Positions 1 to 7,269 of a stretch of 7,269 nt of DNA are shown one piece after another; position 1 is the first letter of the stretch, and each line of letters opens with the position of its first letter. A program made the position numbers and the translations under genes. Source of the stretch: Bacteroidales bacterium UBA3856 (GTDB lineage: Bacteria > Bacteroidota > Bacteroidia > Bacteroidales > UBA932); assembly GCA_002392525.1 (NCBI GenBank), contig DGHE01000161.1:571-7839 (forward strand), written 5' to 3'. The notes under the pieces were generated by a model. That model was not told where the DNA came from, made no database searches, and worked only from the letters and a program-made list of their open reading frames with translations.

Positions 1-366
1 GGCGTAGGTGAAGGCGGCCGTACCGGTCTCACCGCTTTCTCCACGGCCGTGTGCTTTGCCCTGGCCCTGTTCCTGAGCCCGCTGTTCCTGGCCATCCCCA
101 GCGCAGCCACCGCTCCTGCCCTCATCATCGTGGGCGTGATGATGATGCCTTCCATCAAGCGCATCCACTGGGACGACTACTGCAAGGCCATCCCCGCCTT
201 CATCACCATCATCATGATGCCCCTTGCCTACAGCATCTCCGACGGTATCCTCCTCGGTGTCATCTCCTACGTGGCCTGCCACGCCGTTGCCGGCCGCTTC
301 AAGGACATCTCCATTACCATGTGGGTGCTTGCCGTGCTGTTCATCTGCAAGTACATCTTCATTTAG
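1..366 (+). CDS. NCS2-family purine permease (AzgA/PbuG type), C-terminal part
   Basis: This is the last 121 residues of an inner-membrane nucleobase permease; the 5' part lies outside the window and the reading frame is open from base 1 to the TAG at 364-366. The fragment begins GVGEGGRTGLTA, which matches the conserved (E)EGGRTGLTA signature of the AzgA-like branch of NCS2 transporters (hypoxanthine/guanine/adenine:H+ symporters). After it come hydrophobic segments at about residues 14-33, 38-50, 66-95 and 103-121, with PLAYSISDGILLG (74-86) in the position of the family's PLTFSIADGI motif. It ends flush with the last membrane helix, as these proteins usually do. It is convergent with the PII/DUF1538 operon and has its own terminator, so no functional link to that operon is implied. 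Family assignment is firm; the exact purine specificity is not visible here. Confidence 0.92.
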   Translation, partial: GVGEGGRTGLTAFSTAVCFALALFLSPLFLAIPSAATAPALIIVGVMMMPSIKRIHWDDYCKAIPAFITIIMMPLAYSISDGILLGVISYVACHAVAGRFKDISITMWVLAVLFICKYIFI

Positions 367-392: not shown

Positions 393-424
393 CCCGGGTA
401 CGCGCTTCCGTGCCCGGGTTTTTT
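393..424 (+). terminator. Rho-independent terminator of the purine permease gene
   Basis: A 10-bp stem, CCCGGGTACG (393-402) pairing with CGTGCCCGGG (409-418) with one G-T wobble, closes a 6-nt loop CGCTTC and is followed directly by six T residues (419-424). It lies 26 nt after the permease stop codon. On the minus strand the same hairpin is not followed by a T tract, so it should mainly serve plus-strand transcription. Confidence 0.93.
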
Positions 425-512: not shown

Positions 513-830
513 TTACTCCAAATCCAGGGAGGTACGGGAAACGGGAAGGGAGAAGACAATGCCGACGCCCTCGGTGGAAAGACCGGCGTTTTTGTAGACG
601 GCGCGCATGACAGCGTCTTTGATGTCGGCGGTGACAAGGATGAGTACCAGTTCTTTGTCGGGCTGGATGGTGAGGCCAAAGAATTCTTCGGCTTCGGGAT
701 TGGCCGATCCGCGGCCGCGCACGATGCTGCCGCCTTTGGCGCCGGCTGAGCGGGCTGCATTCATCACGTTGTCGGAGTAGCCGGCATTCACAATGCACAC
801 TATAAGTTCGTATTTCTTTTCTTCGGCCAT
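513..830 (-). CDS. PII-family signal protein (second of two), DUF1538-associated type
   Basis: A 105-residue small protein of the PII/GlnB superfamily. These are trimeric ferredoxin-fold proteins that bind nucleotides or small metabolites and control a partner enzyme or transporter in the cytoplasm. The visible fold order is beta1 YELIVCIVNAG (7-17), helix (19-29), the glycine-rich turn and strand GGSIVRGRGS (33-42), a shortened T-loop region ANPEAEEFFGLTIQP (43-57), beta3 ELVLILV (60-66), helix (69-82) and beta4 GIVFSLPV (90-97). Length and the RGRG...EEFFG...IQP(D/E)KE pattern resemble the PII-like proteins commonly encoded beside DUF1538 membrane proteins. The classical GlnB T-loop with its uridylylated Tyr51 is absent, so control by GlnD is not expected. 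The gene starts 5 nt after the stop of the preceding PII-like gene and is last in the operon. Its likely partner is the DUF1538 protein (inference). Confidence 0.88.
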   Translation of the reverse strand: MAEEKKYELIVCIVNAGYSDNVMNAARSAGAKGGSIVRGRGSANPEAEEFFGLTIQPDKELVLILVTADIKDAVMRAVYKNAGLSTEGVGIVFSLPVSRTSLDLE

Positions 831-835
831 GGCGC

Positions 836-1201
836 TTATACTGTTTTTACTTGTTTTTCGTTACTGAGGAACCCGTAAGGCAGGGTGCCGATGATACTGG
901 ACAGGGGTACGGTGAACGCTACACCTTTGTACTCTCCTCCCTTGAGGAAGTGCTCATTGAGCCGGGCTATGAGCTCTGCGGCTTCATCGGAGCGGATGAT
1001 GCTGGTAACTAGCGTCTTGGGCTTGTCTGCAAGGCCCAGGTAGTTGAGGATGAGGTGCGTGGTGCCCTTGCAGGGTACCGTGAACTGCAGATTGGCCTGC
1101 TGCGACTGGATAATGCTGGAGTAGTAGGCCTGCTTGCTGTTGTGTACAATGACAAACAGCATCTCCAATTTGACGGGGGCTATATTCCGGGATGGCTGCA
1201 T
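836..1201 (-). CDS. Divergent PII-like protein (first of two)
   Basis: A 121-residue protein that I read as a second, divergent PII-like paralogue. It aligns co-linearly with the downstream PII gene product: beta1 EMLFVIVHN (13-21), helix (22-35), beta2 LQFTVPCKG (38-46), a short loop to NYLGLADKPKTLVTSII (53-69, matching FFGLTIQPDKELVLILV), helix (71-86), and GVAFTVPLSSIIG (93-105, matching GIVFSLPVSRTS). It lacks the GGSIVRGRG segment of its neighbour, has VPCKGTTH instead, and carries a C-terminal extension of about 16 residues. The start at 1201 lies 3 nt after the DUF1538 stop; an internal Met at residue 14 sits at the edge of beta1 and would truncate the fold, so the upstream start is preferred. 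A role in regulating the DUF1538 protein, alone or as a hetero-oligomer with its neighbour, is inferred from context only. Confidence 0.78.
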   Translation of the reverse strand: MQPSRNIAPVKLEMLFVIVHNSKQAYYSSIIQSQQANLQFTVPCKGTTHLILNYLGLADKPKTLVTSIIRSDEAAELIARLNEHFLKGGEYKGVAFTVPLSSIIGTLPYGFLSNEKQVKTV

Positions 1202-1204
1202 GGC

Positions 1205-2743
1205 TTAATCGAAATAAATGATGGGGTCTTCCTCGGCCGATGCCAGGATGCGACGCATGGCAGCCTGACGGCGACGCCGCTGGGTGATGACCGACCTGAA
1301 GCCCAGGCTCTGGATGGTGATGAGCGGAGTCATGGCCACCATGGCCACCACGCCGAAAGCCAGATCCAGCACATGCGATTCGCCCTGCGCCGTGACGCAG
1401 ATGCCAATTACCATGGGCAGGATGAAACTGGAGGTGAGGGGACCGCTGGCCACCCCGCCGGAGTCGAAGGCGATGGCCGTATAGAGCTTGGGAACAAAGA
1501 AGGACAGCCCCAGGGAAATCAGGTATCCGGGGATGATGTAGTACAAAAGGGAAAAACCGTAATAGACACGCAGCACCGACAGGCCGATGGAAACGCCCAC
1601 GCCGATGGACAGCGCCAGCATCATCTCCCGCTTGGAGACTTCTCCGCCGGTGATTTCGGCTACCTGGTTGTTGAGCACGTGTACGGCGGGCTCGGCCAGC
1701 ACCACCACCATGCCGATGACAAAGGCAAGGCCGATGGTAAGCGTGGGCTGAGCGGAAAGCTGCATGCCGATCTTGAAGCCGATGGGCATGAACGCCATAG
1801 TGACGGCCGTGAGGAACAGCACCAGTCCCGCGAAGGCGAAGAAAACGCCGATGACAATCTGCAGAATCTTGGTCCGCGGAAGTTTCAGGACGGTAAACTG
1901 CAGTACAAAGAAGAAAAGGACAATGAAAACCAGCGACTTGGTCACTTCCAGGCTGGCGGTGGCCATGAGGCTTCCCAGGCCCCCTGAGAGAATGCTCTGC
2001 ATGGAGTAGTCCGGCACCGTGTAATGCATGTCTCCCTGGGAGAACAGGGACAGGAGCAGAACGGCGGCGATGGGCCCCACGGAGCACAGGGCAATGAGGC
2101 CGAAACTGTTCTCGGAGGCGTTTCGGCCGCCAATGGTGAGGGCAATGCCCACGCCCAGTGCCATGATAAAGGGCACCGTGATGGGACCGGTGGTGACACC
2201 GCCGGAGTCGAAACTCAGGGACAGCAGCATGGGGTTGCGCTCATCCAGCATGAGGGCAGCCAGACAGAAGAGCACCATGTAGGCAAACATGAGGATGCTG
2301 GTGAGATCGTGGTGGAAGATAATCTTGATCACCCCGAGCAGCAGCATAAGGCCCACGCCCACACCCACGGTGATGAGGAGGACTGTTCCGTTCATGACCG
2401 CGCTAACCTGCGTGGCCAGTACGGAGAGGTCGGGCTCGGCGATGGTAATGAGAAGCCCCATCACAAAAGATACGGTGAGGAGCAGCCCCAGTTTCTTGGA
2501 AGAGGTAAGGCCTTCTCCCACGTACTGGCCCATGGGCGTCATGGCGATATCGGCCCCCTGGTTGAACAGACCGATGCCAACAACCAGAAGGAACGTAGCC
2601 AGGCCAAAGTTCCCCAGCTCATACCCCGAAATGTCTACCCACGGCGTGAGTGAAAGCACAAGGACAATGAGGCTCACGGGAAGCACCGAGAAAAGTGATT
2701 CCTTGAGTTTGTCCATCAGCGGTTCCCAAAATGTTCTGTCCAT
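1205..2743 (-). CDS. DUF1538 integral membrane protein, internally duplicated, probable transporter
   Basis: A 512-residue polytopic inner-membrane protein with two homologous halves, as in full-length DUF1538 proteins. The first half carries ITIAEPDLSVLATQV (99-113) and FDSGGVTTGPIT (178-189). The second carries VVLAEPAVHVLNNQV (347-361) and FDSGGVASGPLT (426-437). Both motif pairs are offset by exactly 248 residues, which shows the duplication directly. AEP and FDSGGxxxGP interrupt long hydrophobic segments and are likely substrate- or ion-site elements (inference). The C-terminal tail has an RRRRQ cluster near 489-493, consistent with a cytoplasmic end. The family has no assigned substrate that I can state with confidence. 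The start Met overlaps the HTCS stop codon (TAATG), pointing to translational coupling; an alternative Met at residue 10 (MDKLKES) would lose little. The two following genes encode PII-like proteins, the usual type of regulator for such a channel or transporter. Confidence 0.9.
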   Translation of the reverse strand: MDRTFWEPLMDKLKESLFSVLPVSLIVLVLSLTPWVDISGYELGNFGLATFLLVVGIGLFNQGADIAMTPMGQYVGEGLTSSKKLGLLLTVSFVMGLLITIAEPDLSVLATQVSAVMNGTVLLITVGVGVGLMLLLGVIKIIFHHDLTSILMFAYMVLFCLAALMLDERNPMLLSLSFDSGGVTTGPITVPFIMALGVGIALTIGGRNASENSFGLIALCSVGPIAAVLLLSLFSQGDMHYTVPDYSMQSILSGGLGSLMATASLEVTKSLVFIVLFFFVLQFTVLKLPRTKILQIVIGVFFAFAGLVLFLTAVTMAFMPIGFKIGMQLSAQPTLTIGLAFVIGMVVVLAEPAVHVLNNQVAEITGGEVSKREMMLALSIGVGVSIGLSVLRVYYGFSLLYYIIPGYLISLGLSFFVPKLYTAIAFDSGGVASGPLTSSFILPMVIGICVTAQGESHVLDLAFGVVAMVAMTPLITIQSLGFRSVITQRRRRQAAMRRILASAEEDPIIYFD

Positions 2744-5700
2744 TATCCTGCGTATTCGGAAGGTGGTACGCCAAACTGTTTCTTGAAGGAGGTGGAGAAG
2801 TGGGACAGGGTGTTGAAGCCCGTCATCCAGGCAATCTCGCTCATGTTGTGTTTACCCTCCTTCAGAAGGTCTGCGGCGCGGTTGAGTTTATAGCGTTTGA
2901 AGAACACCGACGGGTTTTCTCCCGTGAGGCCCTTTACCTTGTAATAGAACTTGGTGCGGGAAATCTTCATCATTTCCGTCATGTGCACAATGTCGAGGTC
3001 GGCGTTGGCCAGTTCCTTTTCCATGAGGTCGTAGAGTTCCTGCATGAAGGCGGCGTCGCGGGGGGAGAGGGCTTCGGAGGAGAGCTCTTCCGTGGTGGTG
3101 ACGCTGCCCAGCTGCCGGTGCAGCTTTTCGCGGTTCTCCAGCAGCGATTTCACGAGGGCCATGAGGTAGGCGGGCTGGAATGGCTTGGTGACATAGGCAT
3201 CGGCCCCCTTGTCCAGGCCCTGCACCTGGCTCTCCACGGCCACCTTGGCGGTGACCAGCACTACCGGGATGTGGGAAAGCTGGAGGTCTCCCTTGATGCG
3301 GGAGCACAGCTCGTAGCCGTCCATGCCGGGCATTACGACGTCGGAGATGATGAGGTCTGCGGCGTCTTCCGCCATTCCCTTGAGGGCCGATTCGCCGTCG
3401 TAGTAGAGTGAGACCTTGTAGTGCGGCTTGAGGAGCACCTTGAGGTAGTTGGCAATGTCAATGTCGTCGTCCACCACTACGATGTGCTTCTTGGCGGCTT
3501 CCTCCTCGGGGTTGTCTTCCACGATGGCTTCCGCGAGCATGTGCGTCTGGAGCTGGGGCGCTTCGCTCACGCGCTCGTCCTGCGTGTAGGAGCTCTCGCT
3601 CACGGGCAGTACCAGGCTGAAGAGCGCGCCGCCCTCGGGCCGGTTCCACGCGCGGATGTATCCGTGGTGCATGCCGCACAGGACGCGCGCATAGTACAGG
3701 CCGATGCCGGAGCCCGCAAACTTCTTACCCGTCTCCGACTGGTAGAAACGCTCGAAAATCTTCTCCAGCTGGTCTTCATCTATTCCGGGACCGCTGTCGG
3801 CTACGCTGATGCAGGCCCACTGCTGGTCCGTATCTTTGCTCACCAGCGGGAAGCGGCGGATGGCCTCGGGCCGGCTGAGCACGTCGAAGGAGAGGGAGAC
3901 CTTGCCGCCCGAAGGGGTGAACTTGAGGGCGTTGGAGAGGAGGTTCATGACCACCTTCTGCACTTTGTCGGCGTCTACCCACATCTCGAAAGGTTCCTCG
4001 AGGCCGTATGTGCCCAGCTCGATGCCCTTGCTGCGGGCGTTGAAGCCGAAGAGCTCGGCGGTGTCCCGGAGCGGCTGAATGATGTCCATGTGGGCTACCT
4101 TCATCTGGAGCTTGTTATTGCTGATGCGGTTGAAGTCCAAGAGCTGGTTCACCAGCGACAGCAGCCAGGTGGCGTTGCGCCGGATAATGTCCACGAGCTT
4201 CTTGTCCTGCCCGGCAATGCTTTCCGACTCCGAGAGCTGCTGCGCCGGACCCGCAATCATGGTGAGCGGGGTGCGGAATTCGTGAGCCACGTTGGAGAAG
4301 TAGTTCATCTGGATCTTGTTGAGCTCTTTCTCGGCCTGCTGGGCTTCCTCGGCCCTCTCGCGCTCGCGGCGCACCTGCCAGATGCGGCGGGCGGCCTCCT
4401 TCCGCACGCGGCGGACGTGGCGGATGAAGGTGTAAAGGACAAAGAGGAGCATAAGGCCGATGAGCGTCCACAGCATCCATGCCCACCAGCTGTCCTGCCA
4501 GGGCGGCAGCACGCGGATGCGGATGCTTTCCTCGGTCTCGGAGATGGTGTGGCTGCCGTTGGCGATGGTGACGCGTAGCGTGTAGCGGCCGGGCGGCACA
4601 TGGGCGAAGTAGGCGTTGTGCCGGGTATTGATACGAACCCAGTCCTTGTCAAAGCCTTCCAGCTTGTAGGCGTAGCGGATTTGTTCGTAATCGCTGAAAT
4701 CCAGGGCCGTGAAGGAAATGTCAAAGGCGTTGTGGTTGTGCCGGATGAGGATGTCCGGTTTTTCGGAGAGAATTTTGCCGATGGGCCCGTTCTCGGAGGG
4801 ACGCACCAGCTGGTTGTGGATGGTAAGGTGCTCGAAGGCGATGGGAACGGTGCGTTTGGCGGGGGCGTCCAGCGGGTTGAAGCAGGTGAGCCCGTGCGTG
4901 CCGCCGAAGATGAGCGTACCGTCTTCCAGGATGCACGAGGCGCGCTCCGAGTACTGGTCCCCTCCGGTGCCGTCGGCTTCGGTGAACTGGACGAACCGGC
5001 CGGTGGTGCGGTCGTATTTGGCCAGGCCGTTCATGGTGGAGACCCAGATGTTGCCCTGGTGGTCTTCCTCGATGGAACAGACGTCCTGGCAGGGGAGGCC
5101 CGGCATGGATTTTTTCTCGCCGGTCCTCTGGTCGCAGAAGATGAGGCCGTTGGTGATGGTGCCCAGCCAGATGTCTCCGGCGCTGTCCTTGAAGATGCGG
5201 GTGGGGATCATGACGGAGCGGCGCACCGTGGCCTTGTAGTCCTCGTCCATGATGATCTTCTGCTTCACATCCATTGTGTAGGTGTTCACCGTTACGGGAG
5301 CCTGGTTAAAGCAGACGGCCTCCAGCCGGCCGGCTTCCTCCATGCGGAGTTCCGGGACATAGGTCCAGGAGCCGGGGGTGGCGATATCCACCGTCCGGGT
5401 GGTGCGGGTGGCTTTGTCGTAGCGGGTGAGGGTGGAGGAGAAACCGCCCACCCAGATATTTCCCTGGTCGTCCTCGGTGATGGACAGGGGGCTCATGGCA
5501 AAGAAGAAGCCCTTCTCCCGGAGCTTTTTGCCGTCCCAGGAGCAGCAGAGGATGCGCATCTTGTCACTGAAAAGGAGCCAGAGGTCTCCCTGGGAGTCGC
5601 AGAACACCTTGTTGGAGCGGATGTAGCCCACGCTCTTGTCGGGGATGAGGGCGTCGGTGTCTACCGCCTGCAGCTGCCCGCTTTCCAGGTTATAGCACCA

Positions 5701-6807
5701 CAGGCCGTCCATGAGGGTGACAATCCACAGGTTGCCGGCTTTGTCCGTGGTGAGGGACGTGACGGTCTTGTCCCGGAAGGCGTTCACGAGTGCCCGGTTG
5801 CCTCCGAAGAGTCCTTTGGCATAATAGGACACGGCGTATCCCTTGTCGGTGGTGCCGAACCACAGGTTGTGCCGGCTGTCCTGGAAGAGGGTGCGGACCT
5901 CTGCATCCGGGATGGTATAGGGGAATGCGTTGTCTGACTGGAAAAGCAGGCGGTCCGGATTTTTCTGGTACAGGAAGAAACCCTTGCCAATCACGTTGAG
6001 AAGCATGTGGCTGGGGTCTATGGCGAAGAGGATGTCCACATCTCCTCCCATCAGGCGCTTCTCTTCAAGGATGGGGGCGGGAATGGGCTGCCAGGTGCCC
6101 GTGGCCTTGTCCAGGATGCCCAGCCGGCCCATGCCGGAGACCCAGACGGTACCGTCCTGGGCGTCGGCGATGTGGTAGGCCTGGAAGCCGGTTCGGACCG
6201 TCAGGAGAAGGCTCCAGTCCTCCGTGCTGTAGCAGTTAAGGGTGAAACCGTTCCCGGAAATGACCCACAGGCGGCCTTCGGGGTCCAGCGTCATGCTGGT
6301 GGCGCCGAAGGCGTTGAGCTCGCGGAGCACGGGGAGGATGATGTCCTGGTCCGGAAAATAGCAGTAGAGGGAGCTGTTGTTGGAAAGCAGCACCTTGCCG
6401 CTACGGGTTTCCAGGATGGTGCTCATGTTGAGGGTGCCGTCCTCCACCGGAATGCGGTGGAAAGTGCCCTGGTCGGTGGAAACGGCCACGCCGTTGACCG
6501 TGGCTACGCACAGGCGGCCGTCCTGCAGCGTCTGGATGGCGTTGATCTGGTTGTCGGGGAGGCCGGTTTCGTCGTCGGTGCAGAAGAACTGCTGGAACTC
6601 ATGGCCGTCAAAGCGGTTGAGCCCGCGCAGGGTTGCCATCCAGATGTGGCCCAGCTTGTCCTCGGCAAAGGCGTTGATGCGCTGGTTGGACACGCGCTGA
6701 GACATGACGACGCTTCCTTCGGGCGGTGTGGGGATGTCTCCGCCATTATAAGAAGAACAGGCGCTGAGGCTTATGAGGCTCAGGGCCAGGATGACAATCT
6801 TTCTCAT
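2743..6807 (-). CDS. Hybrid two-component system (HTCS) sensor kinase/response regulator, AraC output
   Basis: A 1354-residue one-protein phosphorelay. In order: a signal peptide with lipobox LSAC (Cys17); about 14 Reg_prop propeller repeats over residues 45-645 (for example NAFAEDKLGHIWMATLRGL, LTTDKAGNLWIVTLMDGL, IEEDHQGNIWVSTMNGL); a Y_Y_Y domain (about 693-768, including YAYKLEGFDKDW); one membrane helix (774-795); a basic, coiled linker (796-830); HisKA with H-box NVAHEFRTPL (His842); HATPase_c with N-box N955/N959, DSGPG (1004-1008) and GSGIGL (1032-1037); a receiver (about 1107-1225) with acidic triad start D1113-1115, phospho-acceptor D1156 and K1208; and an AraC HTH domain (about 1255-1354) with helices near 1276-1296 and 1322-1350. 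All catalytic residues are present, so it should be active. The frame stays open upstream to 7083, but the ATG at 6807 is chosen because it gives a proper signal peptide and the extension would overlap the divergent esterase. HTCS proteins usually sense glycan fragments in the periplasm and activate polysaccharide utilization loci. Here the downstream genes are DUF1538 and PII-like genes instead, so the ligand is unknown. Confidence 0.96.
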   Translation of the reverse strand: MRKIVILALSLISLSACSSYNGGDIPTPPEGSVVMSQRVSNQRINAFAEDKLGHIWMATLRGLNRFDGHEFQQFFCTDDETGLPDNQINAIQTLQDGRLCVATVNGVAVSTDQGTFHRIPVEDGTLNMSTILETRSGKVLLSNNSSLYCYFPDQDIILPVLRELNAFGATSMTLDPEGRLWVISGNGFTLNCYSTEDWSLLLTVRTGFQAYHIADAQDGTVWVSGMGRLGILDKATGTWQPIPAPILEEKRLMGGDVDILFAIDPSHMLLNVIGKGFFLYQKNPDRLLFQSDNAFPYTIPDAEVRTLFQDSRHNLWFGTTDKGYAVSYYAKGLFGGNRALVNAFRDKTVTSLTTDKAGNLWIVTLMDGLWCYNLESGQLQAVDTDALIPDKSVGYIRSNKVFCDSQGDLWLLFSDKMRILCCSWDGKKLREKGFFFAMSPLSITEDDQGNIWVGGFSSTLTRYDKATRTTRTVDIATPGSWTYVPELRMEEAGRLEAVCFNQAPVTVNTYTMDVKQKIIMDEDYKATVRRSVMIPTRIFKDSAGDIWLGTITNGLIFCDQRTGEKKSMPGLPCQDVCSIEEDHQGNIWVSTMNGLAKYDRTTGRFVQFTEADGTGGDQYSERASCILEDGTLIFGGTHGLTCFNPLDAPAKRTVPIAFEHLTIHNQLVRPSENGPIGKILSEKPDILIRHNHNAFDISFTALDFSDYEQIRYAYKLEGFDKDWVRINTRHNAYFAHVPPGRYTLRVTIANGSHTISETEESIRIRVLPPWQDSWWAWMLWTLIGLMLLFVLYTFIRHVRRVRKEAARRIWQVRRERERAEEAQQAEKELNKIQMNYFSNVAHEFRTPLTMIAGPAQQLSESESIAGQDKKLVDIIRRNATWLLSLVNQLLDFNRISNNKLQMKVAHMDIIQPLRDTAELFGFNARSKGIELGTYGLEEPFEMWVDADKVQKVVMNLLSNALKFTPSGGKVSLSFDVLSRPEAIRRFPLVSKDTDQQWACISVADSGPGIDEDQLEKIFERFYQSETGKKFAGSGIGLYYARVLCGMHHGYIRAWNRPEGGALFSLVLPVSESSYTQDERVSEAPQLQTHMLAEAIVEDNPEEEAAKKHIVVVDDDIDIANYLKVLLKPHYKVSLYYDGESALKGMAEDAADLIISDVVMPGMDGYELCSRIKGDLQLSHIPVVLVTAKVAVESQVQGLDKGADAYVTKPFQPAYLMALVKSLLENREKLHRQLGSVTTTEELSSEALSPRDAAFMQELYDLMEKELANADLDIVHMTEMMKISRTKFYYKVKGLTGENPSVFFKRYKLNRAADLLKEGKHNMSEIAWMTGFNTLSHFSTSFKKQFGVPPSEYAG

Positions 6808-6812
6808 ATTTA

Positions 6813-6844
6813 CAAATATAGGTAATTTTTTGCAGACGGGAAAA
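6813..6844 (-). promoter_or_regulatory. Bacteroidota-type promoter for the HTCS-DUF1538-PII operon
   Basis: On the minus strand TATATTTG (6820-6813) is a perfect match to the Bacteroidota -7 consensus TAnnTTTG. A TTTT at 6844-6841, 20 nt upstream, is a 3-of-4 match to the -33 TTTG element at the expected spacing. The last G of the -7 box is only 6 nt before the A of the HTCS ATG, so transcription would be expected to start at or very close to the start codon, giving little or no leader. Confidence 0.65.
6823..6834 (+). repeat. TAATTTTTTGCA element inside the operon promoter
   Basis: TAATTTTTTGCA lies between the proposed -33 and -7 boxes of the minus-strand promoter. It resembles the element at 6931-6941 (TAATTTTTGCA), differing by one extra T. 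Its position would suit an autoregulatory operator, but the A/T-rich low-complexity sequence makes chance similarity possible. Confidence 0.35.
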
Positions 6845-6946: not shown

Positions 6947-7269
6947 ATGAAACTAAAACCAGGCTTAACTATCGTGCCGGTCCTCCTTCTTGCCTTCGCG
7001 TGCGGCTCGCCCGTAACGCGCAGTGCGAAGGAATGTGTCTCCCCGCTGGAGACATCGGCCAAAACTTCGACCGTGACCATCAAGAGCGGCCCCGTCTGCG
7101 GCTATGTGGACGACGGCGTATATATATATAAAGGTATCCCGTACGGGGAGGCGGAGCGCTTCATGCCGCCCGTGGACCCCAAGCCCTGGACGGAGCTCCG
7201 TCCCTGCCGCTCCTACGGCCCCGTGTCCCCGCACCCCACGCGCAGCGGCTGGCGGGACGACAGCCAGGC
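6947..7269 (+). CDS. Exported carboxylesterase type B family protein, N-terminal part
   Basis: The frame is open from ATG 6947 to the window edge (107 codons plus two bases), so the catalytic Ser/Glu/His are not seen. Residues 1-19 form a signal peptide (MKLK, then a hydrophobic run ending LLLAFAC). Cleavage could be at AFA by signal peptidase I or at Cys19 as a lipoprotein; the -3 to -1 residues are a poor lipobox. The mature part shows the N-terminal hallmark of type B carboxylesterases (alpha/beta hydrolase fold): VTIKSGPVCGYVDDGVYIYKG leads into GIPYGEAERFMPP. Such enzymes hydrolyse ester bonds, and in gut Bacteroidales often act on acylated sugars or xenobiotic esters. The gene is divergent from the HTCS operon over a 139-bp AT-rich region, so it could share regulation with it. 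No Shine-Dalgarno sequence is seen. A (TA)6 tract lies within the coding region at 7119-7130. Confidence 0.88.
   Translation, partial: MKLKPGLTIVPVLLLAFACGSPVTRSAKECVSPLETSAKTSTVTIKSGPVCGYVDDGVYIYKGIPYGEAERFMPPVDPKPWTELRPCRSYGPVSPHPTRSGWRDDSQ

Follow-up and report, generated by a model that had tools for sequence, protein, structure and literature searches.

Four genes packed almost without gaps, for an HTCS regulator, a DUF1538 membrane protein and two PII-like proteins, raise the question of whether such a cluster represents one functional unit or separate units that have come to lie end to end. In the window, by which we mean the whole stretch of 7,269 nt that was analyzed, ORF calls place all four on the minus strand in the same direction with junctions of -1, 3 and 5 nt: the HTCS (2743..6807, 1354 aa, ATG at 6807) and umpAB, encoding the DUF1538 protein (1205..2743, 512 aa), have one base of a TAATG in common between stop and start, a gap of 3 nt separates umpAB from the gene for PII-like protein 1 (PII1; 836..1201, 121 aa), and a gap of 5 nt separates the latter from PII-like protein 2 (PII2; 513..830, 105 aa). 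Because homologous genes are found in the same order across many genomes, these are unlikely to be chance ORFs, and the compact cluster described in an earlier, sequence-only reading of this DNA is confirmed both by the ORF calls and by this gene order elsewhere. The nearest contigs derive from Bacteroidales genomes, many of them from the rumen, with UmpAB identities of up to 80%. On the plus strand, the 3′ part of a convergent Xan_ur_permease family gene (1..366; identified by Pfam and cut by the left window edge) with a terminator-like hairpin behind it (393..418) lies outside the unit. A Pfam search of the window ORFs found no SusC, SusD or glycosidase, as the sequence-only reading had stated, but the plus-strand gene at the right edge, divergent from the HTCS, is the 5′ part of a carboxylesterase gene (6947..7269; PF00135, 35.6 bits); the window edge falls inside it, so the divergent neighbors of the HTCS itself are visible only to 7269. 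The answer suggested by comparison with other genomes is that the four genes are two units of different origin, umpAB-pii1-pii2 and the HTCS, which abut.

The HTCS carries a Reg_prop propeller sensor, Y_Y_Y, HisKA, HATPase_c, Response_reg and an AraC-type HTH_18 domain in one chain (Pfam), which is the architecture of the HTCS of polysaccharide utilization loci, and its best solved relative is 4a2l (E 5e-53, residues 33-771). Its orthologues (55-80% identity) have a divergent carboxylesterase, another esterase or SusC as their first divergent gene in all 24 readable loci, the carboxylesterase being the one found beside most of them, and SusC/SusD lie within five genes in 20 of these 24; the reference proteins for these neighbors were checked by Pfam, with one labeled SGBP_b without a Pfam hit. 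Given that the orthologues sit on esterase/SusC/SusD/GH3 loci, mostly without umpAB nearby, the proposal that this HTCS had been recruited to a non-glycan or small-molecule role finds no support: from its sequence relatives, it appears to be a regulator of the usual polysaccharide-locus type. Most likely it controls the divergent esterase/SusCD genes, and a polysaccharide locus probably starts with the carboxylesterase at 6947. As in the HTCS of Bacteroides polysaccharide loci (described in PMC11253607), sensor and regulator form one chain, and SusC, SusD and esterase genes lie beside the orthologues of the window protein; the window HTCS differs in having an unrelated, putative antiporter unit gaplessly behind it. 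A lipobox-like motif was seen at the HTCS N-termini (LSAC in the window, 6740-6807), with the strict pattern in 18 of 28 relatives, although a few of the nonmatching ones were read from inside the protein; the motif suggests a lipid-anchored sensor kinase.

The three genes behind the HTCS show a constant association. P-II follows DUF1538 in every locus read whose contig extends past the DUF1538 gene. Among related contigs, PII1 and PII2 are encoded directly 3′ of umpAB in 22 of 23 loci, the remaining contig stopping inside umpAB; PII genes are directly behind umpAB in all 14 loci of the family sample and in 34 of the 36 of the genus sample, where the other two contigs stop inside umpAB and one of those counted (L137) ends after PII1. 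It should be noted that these three Bacteroidales sets overlap. Beyond them, P-II genes lie directly behind in 12/12 DUF1538-matching loci of other Bacteroidota (besides G003) and in 9/9 plasmid records with such a match, six from Clostridia and three from Alphaproteobacteria, P-II having been identified by annotation in seven of the nine and by BLASTP in two. The Alphaproteobacteria encode two DUF1538 genes and a single P-II, the Clostridia and some Bacteroidota a fused DUF1538 and a fused tandem P-II, and other Bacteroidota show both proteins split, a split DUF1538 with a fused P-II, or the converse; the two stay partners through splits and fusions of either. This linkage across Bacteroidota, Clostridia and Alphaproteobacteria indicates that the PII-like pair is dedicated to the DUF1538 protein, so that the pairing assumed in the sequence-only reading stands; that the pair gates the transporter, as was also proposed there, we infer. 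A PII gene adjoining a transporter gene across lineages is likewise the pattern of the GlnK-AmtB type, in which glnK and amtB are reported as genetically linked (PMC10710835). In single loci, a gene for a TrkH-type cation transporter or ClC exchanger adjoins the DUF1538-PII unit (L059:10532-11758, L110:5366-6922).

The two small proteins differ in how readily they are recognized. PII2 scores barely above the PF00543 cutoff (25.8 bits against 25) and is related by sequence to P-II structures (best E 1.7e-5). PII1 matches no Pfam family at E 0.01, hence falls under the P-II cutoff, and a sequence search returned no significant solved relative. Its predicted structure (pLDDT 74), however, has PII or PII-like proteins as all of the best 50 of 1346 PDB matches, with a best E of 1.2e-4 and TM scores of 0.47-0.56 by model length among those 50. 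In profile comparisons, PII1 pairs best with the N-terminal domain of tandem P-II proteins (98.6%, E 5e-16; C-terminal domain weaker, 93.7%) and PII2 with the C-terminal domain (100%, E 1e-38; N-terminal domain weaker, 99.5%), so that the two proteins correspond in order to the two tandem domains. Judged by predicted fold and profile relation, PII1 is PII-like despite the absent Pfam match. The GDGK motif forms the phosphate-binding loop of classical PII proteins (GlnB/GlnK); in a profile alignment to GlnK rows, PII2 does not retain this loop, having one G but another residue for the lysine, which makes an adenylate ligand uncertain.

The DUF1538 protein contains two PF07556 stretches (393 bits in total, above the Pfam gathering score), and reaches 154.5 bits against NF041627 and 139.5 bits against NF041628, below the respective NCBIfam equivalog cutoffs of 490 and 500. 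It is a relative of both UmpAB subunits in fused form and not an UmpAB equivalog, and since these cutoffs are missed, its substrate and direction could differ from those of UmpAB. In ten fused proteins of clostridial and Bacteroidota origin, each half has its own AEP- and FDxGG-type motifs, with SG instead of GG in at least one clostridial first half; the structure model of UmpAB was poor and gave no usable fold match. For the family, an activity has been reported in Halomonas (now Vreelandella) zhaodongensis, whose umpAB confers Na+(Li+,K+)/H+ antiport in Escherichia coli and whose product is reported as a hetero-dimer (PMC5484666). The 4.2-kb clone described there holds ORF1-4, with umpA and umpB as ORF3-4, and umpA and umpB together sufficed to make E. 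coli tolerant, with no need for a PII gene on the clone, which fits with PII acting as a regulator. The window protein resembles this system in its two homologous DUF1538 units, which in Halomonas act together, and differs in that they are fused and followed by two PII-like genes, whereas Halomonas has two genes (PMC5484666). Taking the substrate from the family, the window UmpAB is probably a cation/proton antiporter. In a machine-learning study of growth pH, DUF1538 appears in a Pfam table headed key pH-adaptation genes (PMC13255231).

The association of the HTCS with umpAB is of a different kind. An HTCS lies directly 5′ of umpAB in only 4 of 64 distinct loci, those of the window, L002, L003 and L230 (three of the 64 show no upstream gene); elsewhere, the gene directly upstream encodes trigger factor, a glycosyltransferase, a porin-like protein or one of many unlabeled products, and in some loci a SusD-like or GH3 protein. 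In eleven genomes of the genus sample, umpAB co-occurs with an HTCS that is at least 54% identical: two have them adjacent (G003, and G604 through a second, partial HTCS copy), one has them 4 kb apart (G714) and eight have the HTCS elsewhere, in one case 26 kb off on the same contig. In the family sample, the two genes are on separate contigs in G177, G201 and G169 and about 83 kb apart in G041. A tree of 63 UmpAB proteins places the four HTCS-adjacent loci on more than one branch, with L002 neighboring L001, which has no HTCS at its umpAB; the juxtaposition therefore either formed at least twice or has disappeared several times, and its occurrence on separate branches leaves room for a functional link. 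The HTCS-DUF1538 neighborhood is thus largely not conserved among relatives, the outcome that the sequence-only reading had itself named as counting against it, although the juxtaposition does occur on more than one branch. At the start of one of these loci (L230:1-384), the last 128 HTCS residues are 92% identical to those of the window, whereas the adjacent UmpAB is 72% identical; this may reflect a separate transfer, or only a higher conservation of the HTH end than of the rest of the protein.

To read the transcriptional arrangement, we searched for the Bacteroidetes -7 element, whose consensus is given as TAnnTTTG (PMC7366714). Of the 64 distinct loci, 46 have it in the 150 nt 5′ of umpAB, compared with 3.8 expected from base shuffling, and each of the loci listed has at least one match 9-29 nt 5′ of the umpAB ATG. 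All 27 loci with a divergent upstream gene at a distance of more than 30 nt carry the element, compared with 5/20 in which a codirectional gene lies within 30 nt (Fisher p 2e-8, with kinship among loci ignored). Both L002 and L230 keep an own umpAB element within the short gap behind the HTCS, whereas in the window and in L003 it is absent before umpAB, and in the window the last 400 nt of the HTCS contain none. The sole minus-strand match in the window is TATATTTG at 6813..6820, just 5′ of the HTCS ATG, to be set against a chance expectation of 1.27 for both strands of the window; a -33 TTTG was not found at 19-22 nt from it. With no other minus-strand element, and with the start of umpAB overlapping the HTCS stop, the antiporter unit would be expressed from the HTCS transcript, and a single mRNA for HTCS-umpAB-pii1-pii2 is probable in this genome. 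Cotranscription, the further claim attached to the tight junctions, is to this extent borne out: the operon is probably real here, with the HTCS as its ordinary and loosely linked part. The element is likewise absent where umpAB follows trigger factor, a glycosyltransferase or a porin-like gene, which makes its loss general for umpAB falling behind another gene and not specific to the HTCS. For both HTCS and umpAB, the -7 elements often lie 12-15 nt from the ATG, counted from the first base of the element, which may leave the transcripts almost without a leader; such transcripts are rare in B. thetaiotaomicron, with 5′ UTRs shorter than 10 nt reported at about 3.7% (PMC7366714).

Two explanations would give the juxtaposition a meaning of its own. 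The one put forward by the sequence-only reading, that the HTCS has left glycan sensing and now drives the DUF1538/PII genes, forming with them one unit for uptake or efflux under two layers of control, draws on the start/stop overlap, on the missing umpAB element in the window and L003, and on the four HTCS-adjacent loci, which do not all share a branch. We nevertheless regard it as very unlikely: orthologues of the HTCS reside on esterase/SusC/SusD/GH3 loci without umpAB, eight of the 11 genus genomes with both genes have them neither adjacent nor 4 kb apart, and umpAB retains its own element between both genes in L002 and L230. A weaker link is also conceivable, in which a polysaccharide locus that releases acid through its esterases gains from coproduced pH or cation control, so that an adjacent umpAB is favored. 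The different branches of the UmpAB tree on which the juxtaposition is found and the SusD-like or GH3 genes directly 5′ of some other umpAB genes agree with this; yet umpAB is found just as directly behind trigger factor, glycosyltransferase, porin-like and many unlabeled genes, and we consider a selected link of this kind improbable.

The reading we favor, and hold to be fairly probable, is a PII-gated cation/proton antiporter unit abutted behind a glycan-type HTCS, with umpAB made from the HTCS transcript. Gating by PII, its ligand, the substrate, the antiport activity and the sign of control are proposed from sequence relationships. In this model, umpAB-pii1-pii2 would be an old and widespread unit consisting of a two-repeat DUF1538 antiporter and two dedicated PII-superfamily proteins, while the HTCS would control the divergent polysaccharide locus that starts at the carboxylesterase at 6947. 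Judging from the linkage, the PII pair would most likely bind the cytoplasmic face of UmpAB and, once bound, start or stop cation/proton exchange in response to a signal in the cytoplasm, as in GlnK-AmtB and SbtB-SbtA. PII1 and PII2 may work jointly, by analogy with NifI1/NifI2 of methanogens, a PII-family pair which is likewise encoded in the operon of its target and of which both members are required; the target of NifI1/NifI2 is nitrogenase and not a transporter (PMC9765008). We extend this reading only tentatively to the family as a whole, where DUF1538/UmpAB could be a widespread group of cation/proton antiporters with a constant dedicated PII partner. This partner would be one P-II protein in the Alphaproteobacteria seen and, in Clostridia and Bacteroidota, a pair made of either two domains or two genes; in the lineage of the window, the unit would also have come under a glycan sensor's transcript. 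The locus illustrates how tight operon packing can mislead: the PII proteins are old, constant partners of DUF1538, whereas the HTCS is an occasional neighbor, even if its transcript has probably taken over the antiporter unit. The DUF1538-PII pair is the part worth following.

The model could be wrong about the substrate or about the target of the PII proteins. A DUF1538 protein that carries something other than monovalent cations and protons here, while still being PII-gated, is unlikely but carries appreciable weight, because the sole activity test we found in print covers one pair of the family (PMC5484666) and the window protein misses the equivalog cutoffs; against it stand the twin AEP- and FDxGG-type motifs kept in the ten fused proteins, apart from the clostridial SG variant, and the TrkH-type transporter or ClC exchanger gene that adjoins the unit in single loci. 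That the PII-like proteins are cotranscribed signaling proteins acting elsewhere, without touching the transporter, seems rather improbable. PII proteins are described as able to act on more than one target (PMC10710835), and contact with UmpAB is deduced from linkage; but this linkage, found in every readable locus of three phyla and kept through fissions and fusions, points to one shared job.

Compared with GlnK-AmtB and SbtB-SbtA, where a PII-fold protein acts on a membrane transporter (PMC10710835) as we propose for the window, the transporter here is a DUF1538 protein and a probable cation/proton antiporter, most lineages seen have two different PII domains, and the PII2 of the window does not retain the GDGK loop. 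The transporter targets of PII named in PMC10710835 are AmtB, Amt1, Nrt, Urt and SbtA, and control is said there to seem limited to transporters that work as trimers, which, set beside the reported hetero-dimer of UmpAB (PMC5484666), counts against PII gating of UmpAB. If true, the model would bring a monovalent cation/proton antiporter under PII control, so that a metabolic signal would act on cytoplasmic pH or Na+/K+, and would extend this control beyond the ammonium, nitrate/nitrite, urea and bicarbonate transporters named in PMC10710835. The main text of PMC5484666 holds no mention of PII, P-II, GlnB, GlnK or "nitrogen regulat", further open-access papers naming DUF1538 or UmpAB leave P-II unmentioned, and no paper joining DUF1538/UmpAB with P-II was found in searches of open-access papers; it is on these searches that the novelty of the link rests.

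The distribution of umpAB is patchy: at E 1e-60, 15 of the 199 genomes in the family sample and 41 of the 200 in the genus sample have the gene; PF07556 was detected in 13/395 sampled Bacteroidota genomes and 0/14 control genomes (E 1e-20). One distant member of the Bacteroidota (L128:4124-7143) encodes a DUF1538 protein of 626 aa and a P-II protein of 380 aa, both longer than the other forms. On two mobilizable plasmids of Methylocystis rosea (L112, L115), the arrangement DUF1538-DUF1538-P-II lies near IS66 family transposase genes, a context in which the unit may move as a cassette.
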